Positions 13,786-64,000 of a DNA stretch of 64,000 nt are shown in pieces. Position 1 is the first letter of the stretch. Every line of letters starts with the position of its first letter. The translations under genes were made by a program, and so were the position numbers. A model generated the notes under the pieces. That model made no database searches. It had not been told where the DNA came from and saw only the letters and a list, made by a program, of their open reading frames with translations. This DNA comes from Acanthamoeba castellanii str. Neff. Its lineage: Eukaryota > Discosea > Longamoebia > Acanthamoebidae. The stretch spans positions 48,629-112,628 of the forward strand of contig NW_004457549.1 in NCBI RefSeq assembly GCF_000313135.1, given 5' to 3'.

Positions 13786-16700
13786 CTAATGGGGGGGGGG
13801 ACAAAGCGTTACCGTGGAGTCGCTGCTATCTTCTTCGGTGTCCTCGCTTTCCTCGCCTTCGGTTTCGCTCACCCACTTCTCGATCTCGGCCTCGAATCGG
13901 AACTCATCTTCGTCGTCATCGTGGTTCCTCTTGGTCTTGTAGTTGCGCTTGGCTCCAATCTGGCCAGAGCCGTAGTGGTGGTTCAAGCCCTCGGTGCGAC
14001 TGCAGGCCAACAACCTGAGATCATGGACACCAGGGTGTGAGTCATGGGTTCATCCTAAACACATCGCACGATCCCTGCCAACCAGAGAGAAGAGGGGCAA
14101 TACCAGGACTGTCGGATCTTCTTTACGCGGCGGGCGTTGGCGAAGGCCTGGGCCAAGGTCAGAAGCGAAGTCGCGACATAGCAGCTCAGGCGACCCTCGC
14201 TGCAAGAGATAATAGAATAAATACGGATTGCGATCCGAGAGTGAGTGAGTTCTACCGCTTTACGGCGTTGAGGCCAAAAAGGGTGAAGTCACGAACCTGT
14301 CGTATCTCCTCTCGAGCGCGACAATCAAGTCGGGCTTCTGGAGCTTGCGCGGCCTGACGTATACAGGTGCTAGGAACTCCAAATGGAAGGCGCCTGGATT
14401 GCAGAGCGATCAGGAATGGATCCACACACAAGAGTGGTCAAGAACAACTACGAACCTGAGGCATCGGCTCGCGACTGGGGAACGGCCAGAGAGGGGTCGT
14501 TTTGAAGCGAACGAAGACAGCGAGTGAGGGCGAAGTCGAGGCTAGCGCGCCTGTTAGGAGGACAAGTTAGCTGCCGCACGTTGACATGCCAGCCCACGCG
14601 ATGAACGAAACGTACCTGGCAGTGTCTGTGACGAAGGCGAGTTCGTCCTTGGTGTAGGCGCACTGGTCGAATCTCTTGCAGTTGGCTTTGTTCTTGAGGA
14701 CGTGTTCGGCGTTGAGGTAGATCTTGACGCCCGGTACGACGTAGAGGTCCTGCACGCTTTCGAAGTAGCGCGGCGGCGACGGCAGAACGTCGACGATGGT
14801 GCGTGGGGTCGAGGCGGTCGACGACGAGGCGGAGCTGGAGTTGCTCAGGCCGTACTTCTCGACCAGAGAGAACTCATCGCTCCAAGCATGGAATGCCCAG
14901 CGCTGAGGTGATGCGTAAGGCCACTCGGAGTTCCTGGTGAAGACGGCGTAGAGTGGCTCCTCGTCCTCCTTAGTGAGGCTGCCGAGATGGATGGCACAGC
15001 GCTCAACACGCCGCCCGCCGAGTTGCTTGTCTCTACGCTCAGCGGCGGTGAGGAACGTAGAGGGCTCCTCAGTCACGGTCGCTGCAGCGAGGAAGCGCAC
15101 GATGTACTTCGGCACGTGCGGGGGTGCTTCGTCGACGCTTCTTCTGCCGTGCAGCTCCGCCTCGATGCGCTTCTCCTTGCGTCCCTGGTCGCGGTAGCCG
15201 TTCTCGGCGTCCTTCTTCTGTCGCTCGTCCCGCAGCATGGCTCGCTCCTTGCGCCGCTGTCGCTCCTTCCTCTCGCAACGCACGGCGCCGCGATTCTGCT
15301 CCTCCAAATATTCAAAATGGTGGCATAGGTAGTCGTAGAGCATCCCACCACGCGAGTCCTCGCGATCCCGGCCCGCAGGCTCGTAGTTCCACAGGTCGCG
15401 CTCCTCGCTGTCGATCATGCTCTTGAGCTCGGCGAGGTTCTGTACGAGGTCGGGGAAATGGGCGAAGGCGAGCAGCCGAGGCTCCTCGGTGATGACCATG
15501 TCGTACGACGGGGTTGGCTCAACCTTGCCGGTGCGTGCCTTTCTGGCGTCGTCCTTCTCGACTCTCCGCTTCTGGTCCTCCGTAGCCGGCTCGACGGAAG
15601 GGTGCGGGAGGAGGAAGTCCTGAAGAGTGTCTTGGCTCTGTAGATGAACCTCAATGCCCCGCTTGAATCGGTAGAGCACGCCCATGTCGTTGGGCCTGAG
15701 CAGGTGGCCGCGGTCGTCGCCACCCTCGGCGGCCAGTCTGCATTGCTCCTGCCACAGTTTGTGCTTGAGCTCGTCGACGGTGGCCGACAGCGGAGCGATG
15801 GTGCGGAACATCTCCTCGTCTTCGTCTTCGCCGTCGTAAGTTCGCCGCCTGACGATCCGCAGCGTCACTCTAGCGTCTCGGGCATCGAGGTCCGTAGGCG
15901 GCTTCTCCGAGGCGACGCTGCGCAGGAAGGTGGCCAGCCATGGGCTGAAAACTTCATACTTGTCTGCCAGCAGCGCCCAATCCTCTCGAGACACGGCCTT
16001 AGGTGCCTGTTTGTGGCAATGGCGGAGTTAGTGGTTCCGTACAATAACATGCGCACACAGCAAATGAAGAGGGCGGAAGGAAGAATGACCTGCTTCGCGA
16101 TCTCGCGCACGAGGTCACGGGCCGTCTGGACTTTCCGTTGAGCGAAGCATGCGAGAAGTATCCTATCTGCCAGGTGACTGTCGACCAGGCCGTCGCCGAG
16201 CATGTCGCGTAGCTCCGTCCGCATCAGCTCCTCCCACTTGGCCATCGACCGCTTGCTTCGCATGTCGTCTTCGCACCGCTCGCTCGCATGTGCTACCTTG
16301 GCGTCGAAGAGCAGCGTGCGGCAGAACAGCTTGGTCTTGCGCGTGACACCCGAGGGCTTACCGCCAACAGCGGCGCTCCGCTTCTTCGCTCCCTCGCCGT
16401 GGGCCGCGGACGCTTCGCGAGTCTTCAGGTATTCCTCGTAGGCGTGCGCGAGACGCGTTGCTTTGGCCTTGGCCAGAAGTGGCGAATCCCTGATCTTCTT
16501 GAGCTGCCCGACGATCTGCTCGTCCACTCCCTCGCGACCGCCTCCCAAATCGACGGAGGGTCTCCTAGCGGCGGCGGCGGCGGCGGAAGCGAAGGGCGGC
16601 GGATTAGGGGCGGGATAGGTGGCACGCAGCAGTTCCGGTCCTGAGATCGTTCGAGTCGGCTTCTCCAGCGGTCCTTCCCACGAGAAGTGGCGGGTGGGCG

Positions 16701-28183: not shown

Positions 28184-30398
28184 TCAGGCTAGGTAGCTCT
28201 TGATGATGGGCATGACCTCGCTGCCGGGGAATCGACCGAGCGAACCACGGGCGGCATCGACCTCGGAGAAGTGGGGAATGCCATCGCTTTCGTCGTTTCC
28301 GCTGACCCGCGCGAGCGCCTCCTGCTCGGCCTGGGTCTCGCCGCCGGGGCTGGCGGCGAGCTTGGCCTGAAGAACGCGCCACACGTCCCGGACCCTGGCG
28401 ATGACGAACGGCACGGGCTCGCAGGAGTGGTCGCCGTAGAGGACTGGGGTGGAGTGGTCGCCAGTGAGGCACACGCTGAACTCGGTCTCGCCCTTGGCCT
28501 CCTCCTCGACGAGCTTGCCCACAATCAGGCTCAGCATCTCGTCGGTCTTACCAAGGAACTCCAGCTTGCGACTAATGCTCCTGTGTGTCGTGTAGAAGTT
28601 GTTTGAAGGGTTCAGCGACTGAATTGTGCGGTCGAACTGAGAGAGACCGTGGTGGTAGAACCGCCCATACCTGTCGTGACCGGCATCATCGACGGCCTTG
28701 ACGTGGACGAAACCAAAGTCGTAGTCCTGAGTGACGAGGGTGTGTACGCCGGTCCGGCCCTTGCTCAGTAGGTCCGTGTGGTAGTCACCCGTTGCTCCTG
28801 GGGCATCAACAATATCTAAAGAAGAGAGAGAGAGAGAGAGAGAAGAGGTAAGGAGCCAGCACTGAAGAAATAAAAGAACAACGGGGCCGATACCGATGCT
28901 CAGCGACATGCCGAGGCCCTTGATGATGCACGTAGGGGCTACCATGAAGGCCTTGAGGCCGTGCCTCTTTTCAAAAGCCTCCACCTAGGATGGAATGAAT
29001 CACTTTAGCAACATTGCTCTCGCGCTTATAAAAGGGATCAGAGAAGTATATACATCGTAAAGACCACCACAGCCTCGAAGAAGAATCAGGTTGGCCAAAT
29101 CCTTGCCCTCCTTCGCTCTAGTTTCGTTGATGGGGTGCTGGGTCAGCTTGTTGTGGATGGCAACCGAGAGAGCGTTCACAATCTGTGTTTCGAAAAAAAG
29201 AAACACGTGAAGGAGTGAGTGAGTGAACACAGCTGTAGCGTTCAGCAGGGCCAGCAACACTTACGTCACTTGTCCTCCTGGCCTCCTCCGAGTCCTCCAA
29301 CGGCGTGCACTTGACCAACGGAAGGCTAGCGCACAAGGAGCGAAGCAGAGGTCAACAAGAGGCAATGGTCACCAAGAGTTCTCTTTCGAACTGCAAACCG
29401 TACTTGTCCTTCAGGGGATCGGTGCCCGAGATCTGGTCGCTGAGGCCAGGACCACGGACACGTACGCCGCACCTGGTGGCCATACGTAGTGTAAGCGAAT
29501 CAAGGCAAGGCTTCACAGGATGCGCTACACTTGGTCGACAGGGATCAGTACCGGTGCTCTGTGGCATACTTGAAGTCCACCTGGTACTCGGGAAAGCCAG
29601 GAATCTCCCTGTGCCGTGTGTAAGTTGATCCTTTTTCCATCAAGCGCTCAGACTGGAGAAGCACGCGTACAGGTGGTTGAGATAGCTGCACAGGGGAGGA
29701 CCCAGGTCTTCGAAGTTGCGGTCGGCCCTCCGTGAGACGACGATGTTGGTCTTCGGGTCCAGCGTCGCGAAGTTGGACTGCAAATAAAGGTGAGGGTCGG
29801 GTCAGCACTACTATAGCAGTGCCGCTCCGCGATGCTGTGGTCAGGCTGAGTCGGTGTATGGCACAAGAAGGGAAGAAGTCACCTTGAAGGCGATATCGCC
29901 AGGCTTCATGAGCAGGCCTGCACCCATGGTCTCGAATGCACCACGCCCTCGATAGTACCTGCCGAGAGTGATCCGATTAACACCCGAAAAGCAGCGAGGG
30001 TATCGATAATATAAAAAAAATCAAACTACGTACGTGCGTGGCGGGTAGCCAAGGATCGACAGATGAGCAGTGTCGCTGCCGCATGCAAGGCCCACCTCCA
30101 CGGGGTCCATCAAGCCATTGCGACCCGCTGTGGCGAGGGCGTCCATGGCAGGAGTCACAGCGTGCTGCAGTGGGGTGCGATTGTTCAGTGCTGGGATCCC
30201 CACATCTCCCAATCCGTCCACCATAACAAAGAGAAATCTCTTCCTCTTGCCCTGCTGCATCCTCTCTGCCATGATCCTTGGTAGTTTTGCTGTCTCTGGA
30301 GAAACAGCACGGGCACCAGCGTCCTCATGTTTCAAATTCTTTATCAGCGCCGTTGTTTTCGATGCATAATTTAAAGAATTTATGATATTTTGCTGCAT
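28184..30398 (-). CDS. 2,3-bisphosphoglycerate-independent phosphoglycerate mutase, archaeal type (aPGAM)
   Basis: Interconverts 3- and 2-phosphoglycerate in glycolysis and gluconeogenesis in the cytosol; metal-dependent, alkaline-phosphatase superfamily. The N-terminal metal site is FLFVMVDGLGD. The nucleophile region is ACGSDTAHLSILGY. YYRGRGAFETMGAGLLMKPG and DIAFKSNFATLD are family blocks, as is TPLQHAVTPAMD. The distal metal site is FVHVKAVDDAGHD with VCLTGDHSTP. The gene has about ten exons, the stop at 28184-28186, and about 450 residues. Start at 30398 (MQQNIINSLNYASK) gives a basic, amphipathic-looking 40-residue extension; the Met at 30272 would give the canonical length. This is the archaeal/bacterial form, not the iPGM or dPGM of plants and animals, so lateral transfer or ancient retention is possible. 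Confidence 0.92.
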
Positions 30399-48721: not shown

Positions 48722-51700
48722 ATGGCGCAGGGACGACAGGAGGCTGCCAAGTTGCTGGCCGAACAGCAAACGAGGCTCAGCGCGGTCGAGGGCCTCTCTG
48801 GCGTCAAGCTCGCTCTCGACTTTGACCACTTCATAAACCATCACAAGTACCCTCCGCTTTCGTTTTTATGAGGGCCCTTCGCGTTCTAACCGTGCGCGGG
48901 CTCCTTCAGCTTCAAGGAGAGCTCTCGGCAGGACGACCTCCTCCGAAGCTTGGTATCAGACGTCGTAGAGAAGGGCCTCTGGGCCTCCGACGAAGGGTGC
49001 GTCATTATCGTTTTATTAAAATACGTAATTCGAGAAAGAACAATAATAAATAATAAGTAATAAATATTAAATATTAAATAATGAAATATTAATTGTTGTT
49101 AATATCTGATATCTTCTTTTTTGCTGTGCAGGTTGGTGGCCTGGCTCAACAAGAGCGAGCGAGCGAGACAACTGTTTGCGGCGGGCACGGAGCGTTGCGT
49201 GGTGCGCCTGTCGGCCGACAACCAGGTCGACTCGGGCGTCGGCAACTCGTACTACATGATCCGCTTCGAGGCCCCGAAGACAATGGTGGTCACCGCGCGC
49301 ATGGACTGCGTCACCTACACCGACGGCTGGGGTCCCAAGGTTGACGAGCAGCTCGGCCTGCACGTGCTCGACGAGGTCTACGTCAACGAGGGCGCCGACA
49401 AGCTCAAGCGCGCCGAGGAGCGGTTTAGGTCCGACTTCGCGGCCGACGCCGACCTTCCGCTGGAGGTCGACTGGGCCAGCTTCGTCGCCTCGCCGCAGTT
49501 CCGCGAGCGCGGCGACAGCTCGCGCCAGAGCGTGGTCCACAGCGTGGTCGAGTCCCTGATCGAGCGCGGCCTGTGGGACTCGAGCGAGGGCCTGCTGACG
49601 TGGCTCGCCAAGAGCCCCCGCGCGCGGGCCATCGTGCTTTCGCGCGTCGCGCGTATCGTGGTGGCGCTCAGCCCCGATAGCAGCGGCATCGAGCCGCGCA
49701 ACGGCAACTCGTACTACCAGCTGCGGCTCGTCGACGGCGTGACGCTGGCCGTGACCGCGCGCATGGACTGCGTCACCTACACCGACGGCTGGGGCCAGAA
49801 GCTCGACGAAGAGCTCGGCCTGCACGTGCTCGACGAGGTCTACATGAAGGAGGCCACCGAGCTGGTCGCGCGGCAGGAGGAGCGGCTCCAGGCCGACCTG
49901 GGCGGGGTCGGCGTGCTGCTGGAGGTCGACTGGGCCAGCTTCGTCGCGAGCCCTCAGTTCCTTGAGCGCGGCGACAGCTCGCGCCAGAGCGTGATCCGCG
50001 CCGTGTCGGAGTCGGTGATCGAGCGGGGCCTGTGGGACTCGAACGAAGGCCTGGTGTCGGTCTGGATCAACGGCAGCCGTCGCGTGCGCCGGCTGGTGCT
50101 CGAGCGCGTGAACAAGATCGTGGTACGGCTGCAGCCCGACGGCTCACTGCCGGCCGTGGGCACGGGCAACTCGTACTACCAGGTCGAGCTCGACACGCGC
50201 GACGGCCAGCAGTCGCTGGTTGTGACGGTGCGGCTCGACTGCGTGACCTACACGGACGGCTGGGGCCAGAAGGTCGACGAGCGCCTGGGCCTGCACTACC
50301 TCGACGAGACCTACCTGCGCAAGGCCACGCAGGAGCTCGCCACCAAGGCCGCGGCGCTGCAGTCTGACCTATCGGGCGCCGGGGTGAAGCTGCACGTCGA
50401 CTGGGACTCGTTCGTGCGCGCACCGCAGTTCCTCGAGCGGGGCGACAGCTCGCGCCAGAGCGTGATCGACAGCGTGATCGAGTCTGTGATCCAGCGCGGC
50501 GTGTGGGACGGAAGCGACGGCCTGGTGGCCTTTGCGCGCGAACACCCGGAGGCGTCGCTGGCGTCGCTGGCCGCCGTCGTAGTCAAGCTGTCGCCCGACT
50601 CGCAGGTCGACTACGAGACCGGCAACTCCTACTACGGCCTGAGCGTGAGCGCCGGGCCGACGATCACCGTCACGGTGCGGCTCGACTGCGTGACCTACAC
50701 CGACGGCTGGCTCGAGAAGCTGAACCACCACCTCGCCGACCTCAAGTCAGCAACCAAGGCGGCCGTGGATCTGGATCAGGTGCACGAGTACCTGCAGGAG
50801 CAGCCGGAGCCCACGTTGCCCGGGCCGGCCATACCCTGTGACATCCACGCCTACATGCTGGCGCCGGGCCAGATCGCGACTCCCCAGGTTCGCCTTCGTT
50901 CTTCGCTTTTTTTCAACTCCGATAACTGACTGTTTTAACTCCTATTCCATAATCAGTTGAGCGAAGAGGCCAAGCAAGCTCGCGAGCAGGCACTCGCGGC
51001 GGCCAAGGCCCGGAAGGAGGCCGAGGAGGCCAAGAAGCGCGAGGCCGAGGAGCTCCAGCGGCAGCGCATCGAGGAGCAGCGCCGCAAGCGCGAGGAGGCC
51101 CAGGCCGCCATGCGAGCCCGGCAGGCCGAGCGCCAAAAAACCGCCGGCCGACCCCTGCCCACGCCCGGCGGCGCCAGGCCCACCTCCGCCTCCGCGTCCA
51201 AGGCCGCCGGCGCGCCCGACGAGTCCATCGCCGGCGTCAAGGACCTGCTCAAGGACCTCAAGTCCTACGAGTCACAGTTCAACTCGGCCGTCGGTGGCGG
51301 CTGCGCTGTAGAGTTCGCTGTAGACTGGAGCTTCACGACCGACCGCGCCTTCACCGGCCTCACCGACGACCAGCGTCGTTCCTGCGTCTCCTACCAGCTC
51401 CAGAGCAACGTTAGCTCGCTCGCCAGCCAACTGAACTCGGTCGCGCGCGACACGACGGCCCGAGAGGAGATCCAGTCGGGCCTCTTCACGCGGGTCGTGG
51501 TGGGCTTCGACATGGCCAACGCCATCAACTCGTGCGTGGTCGACAGCGAATACGCGCGGTTCTACGAGGTGGCGCTGCGCGACGGCGAGCTGCAGCTGCG
51601 GATCAACTTTAACAAGCGTGAGGCGGGCCTGAGCTCGCTCGACGACAAGCTGGCCTGCGCGCTCAACCTCCAGGTGGCACAGAGCCAGGCCGAGACGCGC

Positions 51701-54700
51701 CGCGAGCTCGACGCGCTCGAGAAGCGCATCGCCGCCGAGCTCGGGGCCGCCATTGCACTCGACGTCGACTGGGCCGCGTTCACCGAAAGCGACGCCTTCC
51801 TGGGCGGCGCGCTCCGGCACGAGATCGTGCCTCACGACGACCTGCGTCGCTACCGGTCTGTCATCTACAACCTGCACTACCAGTACGTGCAGGGCGTGAT
51901 CGCCAGCTCGGACAGCCTGCTCTACCTGTGCCGCGACGACGAGATCTACCGGGCGGCGGTGGTCGAGCGCATCGCGTCGATCGTGTTCGCCTACGACCCC
52001 GCCGACGGGGTCAAGTCGCCCGTGGGCGGCGATTACGCGCGCCACTGGGAGCTGAAGCTCGACGCGCCGGCCAAGCGGCTGCATGTCACCATCAACCTCT
52101 CCAACGTACCCATCACCACCTCACTCGCTCGCTCGCTTCTGCAACTCTGTGCTCACCTCATCGTGTGTTGTATGTGCCATGTTGTGTGTCGTGTGTGCCG
52201 TGTGTGTCGTGTCGTCCAGAACAACCAATCGCCGTATGGGGCGAAGGAGAAGTGGGACGAGCTGATGCAGCTGCGCACGGCCCAGGGCATCCGCAACGCC
52301 GAGAGGGAGATCGCCGACATGGTCGAGCGCGAGCGCGCGCGGATCGGCAAGCGGGTCGAGGTAGAGGTCGTCTGGGACTCCTTCACCAGCCACCAGGCCT
52401 ACTCCGCGCTCACGCTCGACGCCAAGTCGTCGCTGCTCCGCAACGTCCACTCGCAGCACGTCGAGGCCCTGCTCACCAGCAGCTCCGGCCTCGGCTACCT
52501 GTGCGCCAACGACGAGATCTACAAGCGCACGATCCAGGCCCGGATCGACAAGGTGGTGCTGGCCTACGACCCGACCAACGCCGTGCGCGACCCGATCGGC
52601 GGCGAGTACGGTGCGTTCTACCGGGTCGAGCTGATGGCCGACGACCGACGCGAGCTGCGCGTGACCATCAACCTCGACAAGGCGGGCCAGAGCCTGTACG
52701 CCCTTAGCGATAAGCTGGACGAGGTGCTCGACGTGCGGGTCGAGCAGAAGCAGCGCGACGCCAACAAGGAGATCGATCAGCTGCGGGCCGAGCTCGCCGC
52801 GGCCTTTGGCTCGCCGGCGGTCGCGCTCGCGGTCGAATGGGAGTCGTTCACCTCCCACACCGCGTTCCTGGCGAAGCCCCTGGAGGAGCGCGGCCGGGTC
52901 GTGTCGCAGATCAACAGCCAGCTGCTGGGCACCATTGTCAACAGCAGCGATGGGCTGGCCCGCACGGCGGCGAACGAGCCCACGGCCAAGGCCATTCTCG
53001 CGCGCGAGATCAAGTCGGTGGTGGTGGCGATCGACCCGACGAACGCGGTTGTCGACAGGGTCGCTGGGGACAGCGAATACTGTCGGCACTACCGCCTGGT
53101 CCACTCGGGCGCACCGGCGTGCGAGCTGCGCGTGGTCTGCAATCTGAACGCTGTCGACAAGGGCCTGTACTCCTTCTGCGACAAGGTCGACACTCTCTTC
53201 GACCTCTCCGTGGCCAAGGCCCAGCGCCAGGGCCAGGCCGAGCTCGATAAGTTCGCCGCTGCGCTGCGCGCGCAGGGCATCTCCGTCGCTGTTGACGGCG
53301 GCGTGCGGATCGACTACGCCCGCTTCGTCGGCGCGCCCCAGTTCGTGGCCCAGCCGGCGGCCGAGAAGGGCCGACTCGTTACGCGTCTGATCGACTCAGG
53401 CGTGTCGGCCGTGGTCGAGGGCAGCGACGGCCTCCTCCGCCTGTGCGCCGCCGAGCCCGCCGTAGGCGAGTGGGCCAAGGCCCACGTCCGCTCGGTCGTG
53501 CTGGCCTACGACCCGGCCTCGACCATCAACGACCCGGCCTCCGGCGGCGGCCGTGGTGAGAGCTACTCAGCCTTCTACAGCGTGGCCCTGAGCGACGACG
53601 GCGAGCTGGCCATCACCATCAACCTCAGCAGCGCTAACAGCGCCTCGAGCCTCTACGAGCTGCCTCACAAGCTGCGCGCGCAGCTCCACTTTGCCGACGC
53701 CCGCAAGCGACGGTTCCCGGCGGCGCTGGAGCGGCACCGCAAGGCGATGGAGGCGGCGGTGGGGCACCAGGTGGCGCTGGCCTTTGATTGGCGGAGCCTG
53801 GACAACCCGGGCTTCCTCTATTGGCGGCCGGCAGGCAGCGCCAACGAGGCCCTCGAGACCGCGTTCGACCGCCCGACCGGCTTCTTCGCCCAGCTGGCCC
53901 AGCTCGTCGCCGACGTCTGCAGCACGCCCATGGGCAAGCAGGCCTTCGCCGCCGCAGTGTCGCGCGTGGCTGTTACCGCGTCGTCGGCCGCATCGACGTC
54001 GACGACGCTCACCATCACCGCCGACCAGAAGCTGCTCGAGGTGGTGGCGCCGGCGGGCCTCGAGCGGCGCCAGTCGGACGTGGCCCAGTGGCGCGAGAGC
54101 GTCGAGCACCAGCTCGGGCAGACCGTGGCGGTGGCCAAGCACTACGCGCTGCTCAACGTCGCCCGCGTCGAGCAGGAGATGAGCGCGACCGTGGGCAAGC
54201 GCGTGCCGGTGACGATCGACTGGCGCCACATCGAGGCCCCGGCCTTCATCGAGCGCCATGGCCCGGCCCTCGCCACCCGCCGCATTCGCACCCTGTCGCA
54301 GGCCCTCACCGAGTCGCTCCTGGTGCGCGGCCTCGCCGCCGTGTGCGCCCACCCGGTCGGCAAGCGCACCGTCAACGAGGCCATCGTGCGCGTCGTGATC
54401 AGCCTCGACCCCACCGCCGACTACTCGCCCACCGTCTACGGCCACTTCCCGTCCCTTCTCACCATCGCTTCGGATAAAACGCTGACGCTGCGCACCGACG
54501 AGGAGGCCGCAGCGGCCAAAGAGCGCTTCAAGGAGCGGATCGAGTTCGCGCTCGACCTGGTGGTGCGGATCGCCGAGAGCAATGCGCAGGCGCGGCACGA
54601 CGCGGCCCAGGCGGCGGTGCGCGCGGCTGTCGGGCGGCCGACGCTCAAGATCGAGCCCGACCTGGGCTTCACCGCGCTCCAGGCCTTCCGGGTGCTGCCG

Positions 54701-56419
54701 CCCGCCCAGCAGGCCGACATCGTCACCGCCCTCTGTGCCGCGTTGCCCGAGGCGGCCCTGGCCAGCCCCGGCGGCCTGCTGGGCGTCGTGGCCCACCCGG
54801 TCGGCAAGAATGCGATGAATGCGCCCGGCGTCGACGTCATTCATCTTTCGGCGGATCCTGACAATCGCCAGCCGTCGCCCAATGGCGCCCTCGCGCTCGG
54901 TTCCGGCGGAAAGAGGCTCGAGCTGACCCTCAACATGCGCGACGTGCTGGCCGCGGTCGAGCGGCCCGACTGGAAGCCGCGCATGGCCGACGCGCTCGGC
55001 GTGCTGCTGGACGTGGCCAAGGCCGAGGCCGCCACCGCGCTCGCACCCACCGCGGCCAAGCTCGGCGCGGCCCTGGGCCGGCCTACGCCGGTCGCGCTCG
55101 ACTGGTCCGCCTTTGTCGGCGCGCGCGAGTGGACCGAGCTCGAGGCCGGTGCCAAGCTGGGCATCTCGGCCGACGTCGCCGGCCCGCTGGCCGCCCGCGC
55201 GCTGCTCGGGTACCAGGGCCTGGCCGGCCTCGCCGAGTTCGACGACGTCAAGGCCACCGTCAACCAACACATCGCGTCGGTCCGCATCGTCGTCGAGACC
55301 CGCGCCGGCGCGCAGACGACGGTGAACGCGGCCAACGGCGCGTTGACCCTGTCGCTGCCGCTCGACCAGCTTAAGTCCAGCGACTTTGAGCTGCCACCGG
55401 TGCGGTTCCTGGTCGAGGCGGCGCTGGGCCTGAAGCCCGCAATCCAGGCCGCCGTGGTGCGCGAGACCGAGGCGGCGCTGGCCAGCGGCACCGAGGCCGG
55501 CCTGTCGCGCGCGCTGGGCAAGCCGATCAAGGTCACCATCGACTGGGCGGCGCTGTTCGGGTCGGCCCTGTACCGCGGCACGCAAGACTACGTCGGCTTC
55601 ATCCGAAAGCGCGTCGCGCCGCTGCCGGCGACCGCGTTCGAGGGCAAGGACCGCGACAGCCTGGCGGGGCTGTGGTCGGCCAACGACGCCGCGCGGCGGG
55701 CCATGGCCCAGCGCTTCGGCGAGCTCAAGCTGGTGGTCGACACCACCAATGCGTGCCACCCGCCCCAGTTCAGGTTCGTGCCGCAGTACTACCGCGCCGA
55801 TGCGGAGGGGGCCACGCTGGCCGTCCACATGCGGATCGACGAGCAGGGCGGCCGCGGGTGCGGCGCGGTGGTCGAGTGGGTGCTCACCCCCGACGTCGCC
55901 GCCGCCAAGGAGAAGGCCGAGATCGCCCGCATCGGTACCGTCTGCCGTCTGCGCCCAACGTTGTTTGTCTTATTTTTCACGTGCGGCGATGACTGACTTG
56001 TGCGTTTGTTGACTGATCCATCAGCCAACGAAAGACGTGCCGATGAGCTGGCGCGGCGCGATCGTATGGTGCGCGACGCGGCCGCCGACAACGAGCGCGC
56101 GCAGAAGGACTACCAGCGCGACATCAAGAAGTACGAGAGCGAGATGAAGAAGTACGAGAAGGATGTGAAGGAGAAGCACCTGCACTGCAAGGGCACGGGC
56201 TGGCTGTCGTGCGGCGGCTCGTACCACCAGAAGAACTCGATCCTGAGGTCGTGCCAGTACTGCAACGGCAAGGGCGGCCACAAGTGCGGCCTGTGCAAGG
56301 GCACGGGCCTCAAGTACCCCAACCTCAAGCCGCCCAGCGTGCCCAAGCAGCCGAAGCTCAAGCCCATCCCGACCTTCGCCTCCATCGACTCCATCGACTT
56401 CACCCGCAACATCTCCTGA
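48722..56419 (+). CDS. Giant 14-unit tandem alpha/beta repeat protein with C-terminal DnaJ-like Cys-rich motif
   Basis: Six exons (48722-48846, 48910-48996, 49132-50887, 50957-52105, 52220-55934, 56025-56419) sum to 2,408 codons plus stop. No named family recognised. The protein is 14 units of 144-163 residues. Each opens with a hydrophobic strand plus DW (EVDWASF, DVDWAAF, AVEWESF, TIDWRHI). It continues with two helices, a V-x-L-S/Y-P-D strand, NSYY or YxxFY, a VTxR/TINL strand and a charged helix. Unit starts: residues about 30, 181, 334, 491 (type A, near-identical); 774, 922, 1085, 1240, 1401 (type B); 1557, 1701, 1847, 1995, 2142 (type C, most diverged). A long Arg/Glu/Ala coiled coil (residues about 657-720) separates A from B. 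The last exon has a second charged helix, then CKGTG...CQYC...CGLCKGTG (residues 2332-2368), like a DnaJ zinc centre. No signal peptide; probably cytosolic. Function unknown. Confidence 0.85.
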
Positions 56420-61596: not shown

Positions 61597-64000
61597 ATGG
61601 CCAGGCCAACTGTGCTCGTTGCCCTGTTCCTGGTGGCCATTTGCCTTGCCGCCACCTTCTCCGGTTCGCAGCCGTAGCCTTTGCGTTCCGTTCGTCTTTG
61701 CCTCCGAACTTAAAATCTAAATCGATATATTTCATCTTCACAGATGCTGCGAGCGTGCAGTTCGTCGCCTCCACTTCGGAGCTGCTCAACCCAGGCCGCG
61801 GTTGGTACTCCCAAGCCGACATGGACGTACCCGGAGGCGACCCCCTCAGCCTCGACGGTCCGTTCTACCCCCCCCCGCGCATGTTTATTCTGTAATAAAA
61901 TAATATTCAATAAATTAGGAATTAATTTCACCAATAAGTTATCATTTATCCATTATTTAATAAATAAAAATAAAATCAATCTGTGGAGCAGACTTGGTGG
62001 ACCTTCGCGATGGGGCGCCGCGCCAGTCGCTGCTGCTGCGCAACTACTGGCTGGTAGGCAACTCCTCCCTCAAGTTCAACCAGGGGTACCTTGCTCGCCA
62101 GGCCAGGCCTTGCCATGTGCGTGTGCGGTCGTCTGATCACAACCGCACACGCACGACACGCACGCCCGCACGCACGTTCACACGCACGCGACAGAGCGCC
62201 GTTGCCGCAGGAGTTCCTGACGACGATGTCCAACGACTTGGAGGCGATCCGTGAGGCCGGCATGAAGGCGCTCCTGCGGTTCGGCTACACCCACACTGAT
62301 CCCACGGTGGAGGGCTTCGTGCCGCCCTACGGCGATGCCTCGCTGAGCGTCGCCTCGGCCCACATCACCCAGCTCTCCCCCATCTTCAAGGTATGCTCGT
62401 TTCCCGTCAGTGTGGCCCAACATGTGTGCTTATCGGTGTGTGCGGTGTTGGTAGGCGAACGCGGATGTGATCTTCACGATCCAGGCGGGTTTCATTGGGA
62501 CCTGGGGCGAGTGGTACTACACCGACTATTGTACGCCCCCCCCCCAAATTTAATCTGTGCTGACAGCACCTCACATTCCTTACACTTTGGGGCGTGGGCA
62601 GATGGTGGCGTTGGGAACTCCTCCGGTGTACGTTCCACACCTTGGCTTTCTGCGCCTCTTCTGTACTCAGTGCGTCGTGTGTGCATGTCGTGTCGTGTCG
62701 TGTCGTGTGTCGTGTTGCATGCGTGCGTGTCCAGAACGCGGAAAGGAAGACGCTGCTCGACCGGCTGCTCGCGGCAACGTCGCCCTCGACCCCCATCGCC
62801 GTGCGCACCCCGTACTACAAGTACCAACTGCTGAACCGCAAGACCACCCTCTCCACTTCCGAGGCCTACTCTGGATCCAACGTCGCCCGGCTCGGTACCG
62901 CACTCGACCGCACACACCACACACCACACGCGCACACGACCGCACATTCGGTTGGGCTGACGTGGCACGGCGGCCACCCAGGTTTCCATAACGACTGCTT
63001 CCTGTCGTCGGCTGACGACTTGGGCACCTACGTCGACCCCGGCTTTGAGTATCCCTACCTGGGCAACGGTTCGCAGCTGAAGCGCTTTTCTTTCATTCGC
63101 GATTCGTGCGCTCACTACGTGGGCGCGTGCGGTGTGGCTTGGCGGGTCACAGAAACCAAGTACACGACCATGGGTGGTGAGACGTGTGCCAAGGACACCC
63201 GATCCAGCTGCTACGCGAAGGACGGCGGCGCGGCCCTGACCGAACTCGCCCGTAAGTCCCTAATCCAGCTGCCTTGCGCATGTGCTGACTGTGTTCCTTG
63301 GTGTGTGCGGTGTGTGCGGTGCGTGTGCAAAGGGTTCCACTGGAAGTACCTGAACATCGGCTACAACGAGCTCGTCATCAACACGTGGAAGAGCGAGGGC
63401 TGCTTTAGCAACATCACGCAGCGCCTGGGCTACAGGCTCCTCCTGTCGCCCAGCGCCACCCACACCTACACCAGCGCCGTCCGTCCCGGTCCGTCCCCAA
63501 CCGGCCGCACATATTAATATTATATAATTATAACTATTATTATAATTATTATTTAAATTCATCTCATTACAAAAGATATTTCTTATATTTCTTGTTTTTT
63601 ACAGGTCGCCGCTTTGATGTGTCGCTGGTGATCGAGAACGAGGGCTTCTCGGCTCCGCTCCACCAGGTCACTGTCTACCTGGTCCTCACCGCCGAGTCGT
63701 ACGCACCCCACCCATTGCGCCTCAATCTGCATTCAACAAAGGTTGCCTCAAGTTGAACTGAGGTCTGCGTTTGTGTGCACAGGACTGTGTGGACCAAGCT
63801 CCCGGTCGACCCGCGCTTCTGGCACCCCGAGCAGTCGCCCTTCACCCTCAAGTACTCCCTCGGCATCGGACCCAACGTGCCCGCAGGTACGCCAAACACG
63901 ACACACCGCACACGCACCGCACACGCTCACCGTATGGGTGCATGACGAGTCAGGCAACTACTCGCTGGGCTTGCTGTTCGCGGACGCGCTCATGGCCTCG
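61597..64000 (+). CDS. Secreted DUF4874/DUF4832 protein, 3'-truncated by window edge
   Basis: N-terminal signal peptide (ARPTVLVALFLVAICLAATF), then QFVASTSELLNPGRGWYSQA, the NPGRG start of DUF4874. An exon at 62211 onward has LRFGYTHTDPTV, DASLSVASAHITQLSPIFK, and, after an intron, ADVIFTIQAGFIGTWGEWYY, the family's most conserved block. DUF4832 follows: PSTPIAVRTPYYKYQLLN, FHNDCFLSSADDLGTY, HWKYLNIGYNELVINTWK, GYRLLLSPSA. The last exons read RRFDVSLVIENEGFSAPLHQ, an Ig/sandwich-like extension, to the window end. These twin domains are known mainly from bacterial secreted proteins, probably carbohydrate-active TIM barrels with unproven activity. Exons 61597-61663, 61744-61857 and 61992 onward join in frame; later introns contain GTGTCGT repeats. 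The protein continues past 64000. Confidence 0.82.

Follow-up and report, generated by a model that had tools for sequence, protein, structure and literature searches.

A fourteen-unit repeat protein of Acanthamoeba castellanii with a possible zincin-like module lacking a metal site

Acanthamoeba is of medical and cell-biological interest. Here, we describe a gene in a 64,000-nucleotide stretch of the Acanthamoeba castellanii str. Neff genome (contig NW_004457549.1, positions 48,629 to 112,628; hereafter the window) that occupies positions 48722..56419 of the plus strand in six predicted exons and encodes a protein of 2,408 amino acids with fourteen homologous units. With a probability of roughly 0.4, we propose that this protein is a ~265-kDa soluble scaffold or tether, whose fourteen modules form one new family of ~150-residue domains with a zincin-like fold but without a metal site. 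The analysis defines the boundaries and relatives of a domain family missing from the copies of Pfam and NCBIfam searched, presents a protease-like fold that may have been recast as a repeated structural module and can be tested as such, and adds two large multi-domain proteins to the known set of this amoeba.

The exons (48722-48846, 48910-48996, 49132-50887, 50957-52105, 52220-55934 and 56025-56419) join into an open frame of 7,227 nt, corresponding to 2,408 codons and a stop, in agreement with the original prediction that they add up to an exact multiple of three. All five introns have GT...AG ends. The G+C content at third codon positions (GC3) is 0.93 in the joined frame, and the introns have a G+C content of 0.21-0.59. 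Translation would start at 48722, the first ATG within its upstream-open frame. By unit alignment in the joined frame, exon 1 provides the start codon, an N-terminal helix and the beginning of unit A1; exon 2 provides a portion of A1, its unit pattern being restored by splicing; exon 3 holds the remainder of A1, then A2-A4; exon 4 holds a charged helical linker, B1 and most of B2; exon 5 holds the end of B2, B3-B5, C1-C4 and most of C5; and exon 6 encodes a charged helix and a DnaJ-type cysteine-rich tail, the latter recognized from sub-threshold zinc-finger matches. Intron 4 (52106..52219) is 114 nt long, a multiple of three, and contains no in-frame stop, so that the frame of exons 4 and 5 reads through it. 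Consequently, a gene finder could keep it, and automatic gene models may retain it. Left unspliced, it would add 38 residues to the product; once it is removed, B2 aligns with B3.

When the protein was cut at the strand carrying the D-W motif, fourteen units of 144-163 residues were obtained. Each was then omitted in turn, and a profile of the other 13 was searched against it with hmmsearch. The scores in bits were as follows (plus-strand coordinates): 104.9 for A1 (48803..49453, spanning introns 1 and 2), 159.0 for A2 (49454..49912), 121.9 for A3 (49913..50383) and 98.4 for A4 (50384..50854, diverged in its C-terminal part); 64.0 for B1 (51308..51751), 85.7 for B2 (51752..52354, spanning intron 4), 134.1 for B3 (52355..52819), 102.5 for B4 (52820..53302) and 85.4 for B5 (53303..53770); and 24.4 for C1 (53771..54202), 59.8 for C2 (54203..54640), 47.1 for C3 (54641..55084), 23.3 for C4 (55085..55525) and 23.1 for C5 (55526..56062, spanning intron 5). 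All 14 omitted units were thus recovered, at 23.1-159.0 bits, with C5, C4 and C1 the weakest. Among the shuffled controls, 176-199 of 200 per unit received a listed score, the highest being 9.0 bits, and reversed units reached 5.4 bits at most. These results uphold the predicted fourteen homologous units; several such units in one chain, the mark of a tandem repeat protein made by internal duplication, are found here for 14 of 14. The strand-D-W opening proposed for every unit is literal in nine of the fourteen, as read off the unit starts: B3 and B4 keep the W without the D, and the W is replaced by F in A1, by Y in B5 and by L in C3. Because the protein starts with the helix that precedes this strand, the natural unit boundary probably lies one helix upstream of the cut made in the original prediction.

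No Pfam or NCBIfam row exceeded its curated cut-off for the four exon translations searched (exons 3-6), as expected from the claim that no curated family covers the units. Pfam rows for Cytidylate_kin2, Sheath_initiator, Laminin_G_2, SYF2 and others were under the cut-off and were rejected. Among PDB sequences, exons 3 and 5 had no match, and a 13-row unit profile gave a single row with an E-value of 0.36. In our searches of an open-licence library, no published account of this repeat protein or of tandem arrays of inactive zincins turned up. Judged by sequence, none of the searched libraries contains the unit domain.

Could these units be zincin-like domains that no longer serve as peptidases? 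We modelled three of them, A2 alone and B3 with B4 as a two-unit model, with predicted local distance difference test (pLDDT) scores of 86.6 and 84.7, respectively. The predicted unit combines helices with four strands, as anticipated for an alpha/beta unit, in the predicted order long helix, DW-motif strand, helices, three successive strands and helices. The proposed alpha/beta solenoid fared less well: in the B3-B4 model, the strands of the two units are separate and one long helix passes between the units, so that a continuous solenoid is not indicated by the models and is probably the wrong picture, and the long helix is predicted to be common to consecutive modules. The zincin-like fold class leads the structural matches for both models, although the resemblance is weak; for one model, all but 1 of the top 12 rows contain a zincin-like domain by our assignment of fold classes. 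The modelled unit may therefore lean towards a zincin-like fold, and the earlier view that it belongs to no known repeat class agrees with the curated-family searches but is made uncertain by these structural matches. The HExxH zinc-binding and catalytic motif has no match in the 2,408 residues, and the Pfam rows of exons 3-6, taken up to E 10, include no peptidase family. Alternatively, the units might have a new alpha/beta fold unrelated to zincins, the weak matches reflecting a common arrangement of a helix and a mixed sheet; a scaffolding role would hold in that case as well. We consider this a serious possibility but clearly short of even odds, since the same class leads for units as diverged as A2 and B3 (28% identity) or A2 and B4 (33%), and by our assignment just one of the 12 rows lies outside it.

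If the modules are zincin-like without a metal site, it is plausible that they bind partners rather than cut them. The long helix common to consecutive modules would give an extended, semi-rigid rod. The charged linker after A4 would be its hinge, joining the young A block to the older B/C block, and the diverged B/C units would offer differing partner surfaces. The charged helix and the DnaJ-type zinc tail would close the C-terminus, with the tail as a terminal binding site. The linker (residues about 657-735; 50957..51190, plus strand) drew NCBIfam TolA rows, with E-values of 0.0022 and 0.004, far under the cut-off. The tail (56186..56308, plus strand) contains two full CxxCxGxG motifs, CQYCNGKG and CGLCKGTG, and one partial motif. 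Exon 6 gave sub-threshold Pfam rows for the AtTam37, BSD2 and DnaJ zinc fingers and a PDB sequence match to EMB2737 (E 0.0055); the DnaJ central domain (PF00684) scored 9.9 bits and did not reach the Pfam cut-off of 32.7.

Relatives of the units were found both in the same 38.4-Mb genome and in metagenomes. Exon 5 matches two other contigs, C198 and C236. The C198 paralogue, on the minus strand and in tail-to-tail orientation with an actin gene, has seven units by our count (Q1-Q7), followed by a charged helix and a stop; it lacks the zinc tail. Its units fit best in the register B4..C5, with a mean z of 10.9 compared with 7.7 for the next of eight registers; 12 of 20,000 random assignments were equally good, and the single best matches lie on the diagonal for only three of the seven units. 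The C236 locus (L020:3280-4900, minus strand) looks by sequence like a decayed copy of the window gene, with one open B4-like unit (40% identical) followed by weakly matching pieces of later units that lie in other open frames; the exon 6 search recovered no zinc tail there, a tail fragment being matched by eye alone. Upstream of the Q units, C198 carries about 22 copies of a very dissimilar helical repeat of ~85 residues (L019 / L021, C198:34617-41587, minus strand), for example FIKDWYYQEYYNDAIEALEELNSLLPALEAYAADSHVADVIK..., apparently often one copy per exon. Thirty stretches match there, some overlapping; 22 begin at query residues 1-8, and the rest match the later part of the query. No Pfam row was above the cut-off in the two stretches scanned.

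Among ~5.8 billion proteins, exon 3 found one match (7,998 scored candidates), the 515-residue metagenomic protein P0001, whose units are all of the A type (E 1.1e-93, 40% identity over 60%), and a nine-row unit profile found four (7,992 scored candidates), P0002-P0005. P0002 shares 96% identity with the C236 unit, and P0003-P0005 match two or three of the units Q3-Q5, arranged in order, at 56-81% identity. Residues 1-600 of exon 5 gave no protein match at E 0.01 (7,988 scored candidates). Scans based on short conserved words revealed no relative in genome_contigs (84,980 species, no eukaryotes; A-unit profile, 6 pattern matches) or among IMG/VR viruses (four scans; 2, 3, 32 and 0 pattern matches). 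Against viral structure models, the best Foldseek E-value was 0.095.

Does the protein work inside the cell? No signal peptide or membrane helix is apparent in it, the most hydrophobic 19-mer averaging 1.39; hence, the cytosolic place suggested in the original prediction is reasonable. An extracellular or cyst-wall adhesin family, in which secreted beads bind surface glycans or other cells, seems improbable to us. It would suit P0001, which starts with a signal-peptide-like hydrophobic stretch (residues 6-20) and has cysteines just at positions 21 and 500, outside its units, whereas all A units of the window protein carry a cysteine at a common strand, where P0001 has serine (LDC/MDC to LDS). 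However, the P0001 start is a gene-caller prediction on a 2.3-kb contig, and the window protein begins directly with the unit's own helix, without a hydrophobic N-terminus; it also contains 28 cysteines, and its tail resembles a zinc finger. The signal-like start and cysteine-free units make P0001 a possible secreted branch.

The three sets align with one another as profiles over 117-147 columns (A-B 4.8e-15, B-C 1.7e-11 and A-C 3.6e-9, E-values being hhalign's own for a single pair); the A profile comprised A2, A3, part of A4 and three P0001 pieces, without A1, and B2 and C5 were partial. Compared in pairs, the A units are 41-63% identical, the B units 30-38% and the C units 27-38%, and units from different sets 17-36%. 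A tree was built from 21 units (14 from the window, four of the paralogue's seven and three from P0001); 2 of its 18 inner branches were starred at the tool's threshold of 95/80. The predicted division into three diverged sets is clear only for A, which with the P0001 units forms one side of a 100/99 branch; the B units group weakly, with one paralogue unit among them, and the C units are scattered without forming a group (4 changes; as low in 175 of 500 shuffles). From this pattern, the A block seems to have expanded more recently, and B/C to be an older array. Furthermore, Q5 pairs with C3 (94/90) and Q7 with C5 (93/87), both under the star and on long branches, which suggests that part of the C-terminal array probably predates the gene duplication. 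The predicted origin by internal duplication thus agrees with the homology of the units, but the array would not be all recent.

Another reading is that two neighbouring genes, one for the A block and one for the B/C block, have been misread as one. P0001 carries A units alone, no A-like block is among the seven units found in the C198 paralogue, and the A block terminates in the diverged A4. Nevertheless, we regard this as very unlikely, as the blocks are only 69 nt apart, the gap has GT-AG ends and keeps the phase, and the frame of exon 4 is already open at its first base, with the first ATG about 50 codons in.

For the family as a whole, we tentatively suggest, at somewhat less than an even chance, lineage-restricted pseudo-zincins: a zincin-like domain would have lost its metal site, been amplified to 14- and 7-unit arrays with position-specific units, and been reused to build giant soluble proteins of Acanthamoeba-like amoebae; P0001 may be a secreted branch. 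Among the readings compatible with the data, the pseudo-zincin one is the most informative, though we hold it with no more than moderate confidence.

Elsewhere in the window, open frames at 14570-16027, 28187-28984 and 62564-63514 match DUF3825, the Metalloenzyme superfamily and DUF4832, respectively, above the Pfam cut-offs, and one at 40111-40854 matches a PTP-SAK phosphatase domain below the threshold (E 9.8e-5).

How does the protein compare with known systems? Like DnaJ-type and BSD2-type zinc fingers, it has CxxCxGxG motifs, placed at its C-terminus, but DnaJ has four of them, whereas the tail has just two full ones and stays under all Pfam cut-offs. Spectrin-type rod-like cytoskeletal proteins likewise join multiple copies of a module by helices that cross from unit to unit, as predicted here for the two units modelled together; on the other hand, spectrin repeats are three-helix bundles, whereas the unit has four predicted strands, and no Pfam spectrin row appeared for exons 3-6. 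Although it differs from zincin metallopeptidases in having neither HExxH nor a Pfam peptidase match, the predicted unit order shares a long helix, strands and a post-sheet helix with the zincin-like fold of metallopeptidase clan MA and the N-terminal zincin-like domains of GH20, the fold that heads the structural matches of both unit models.
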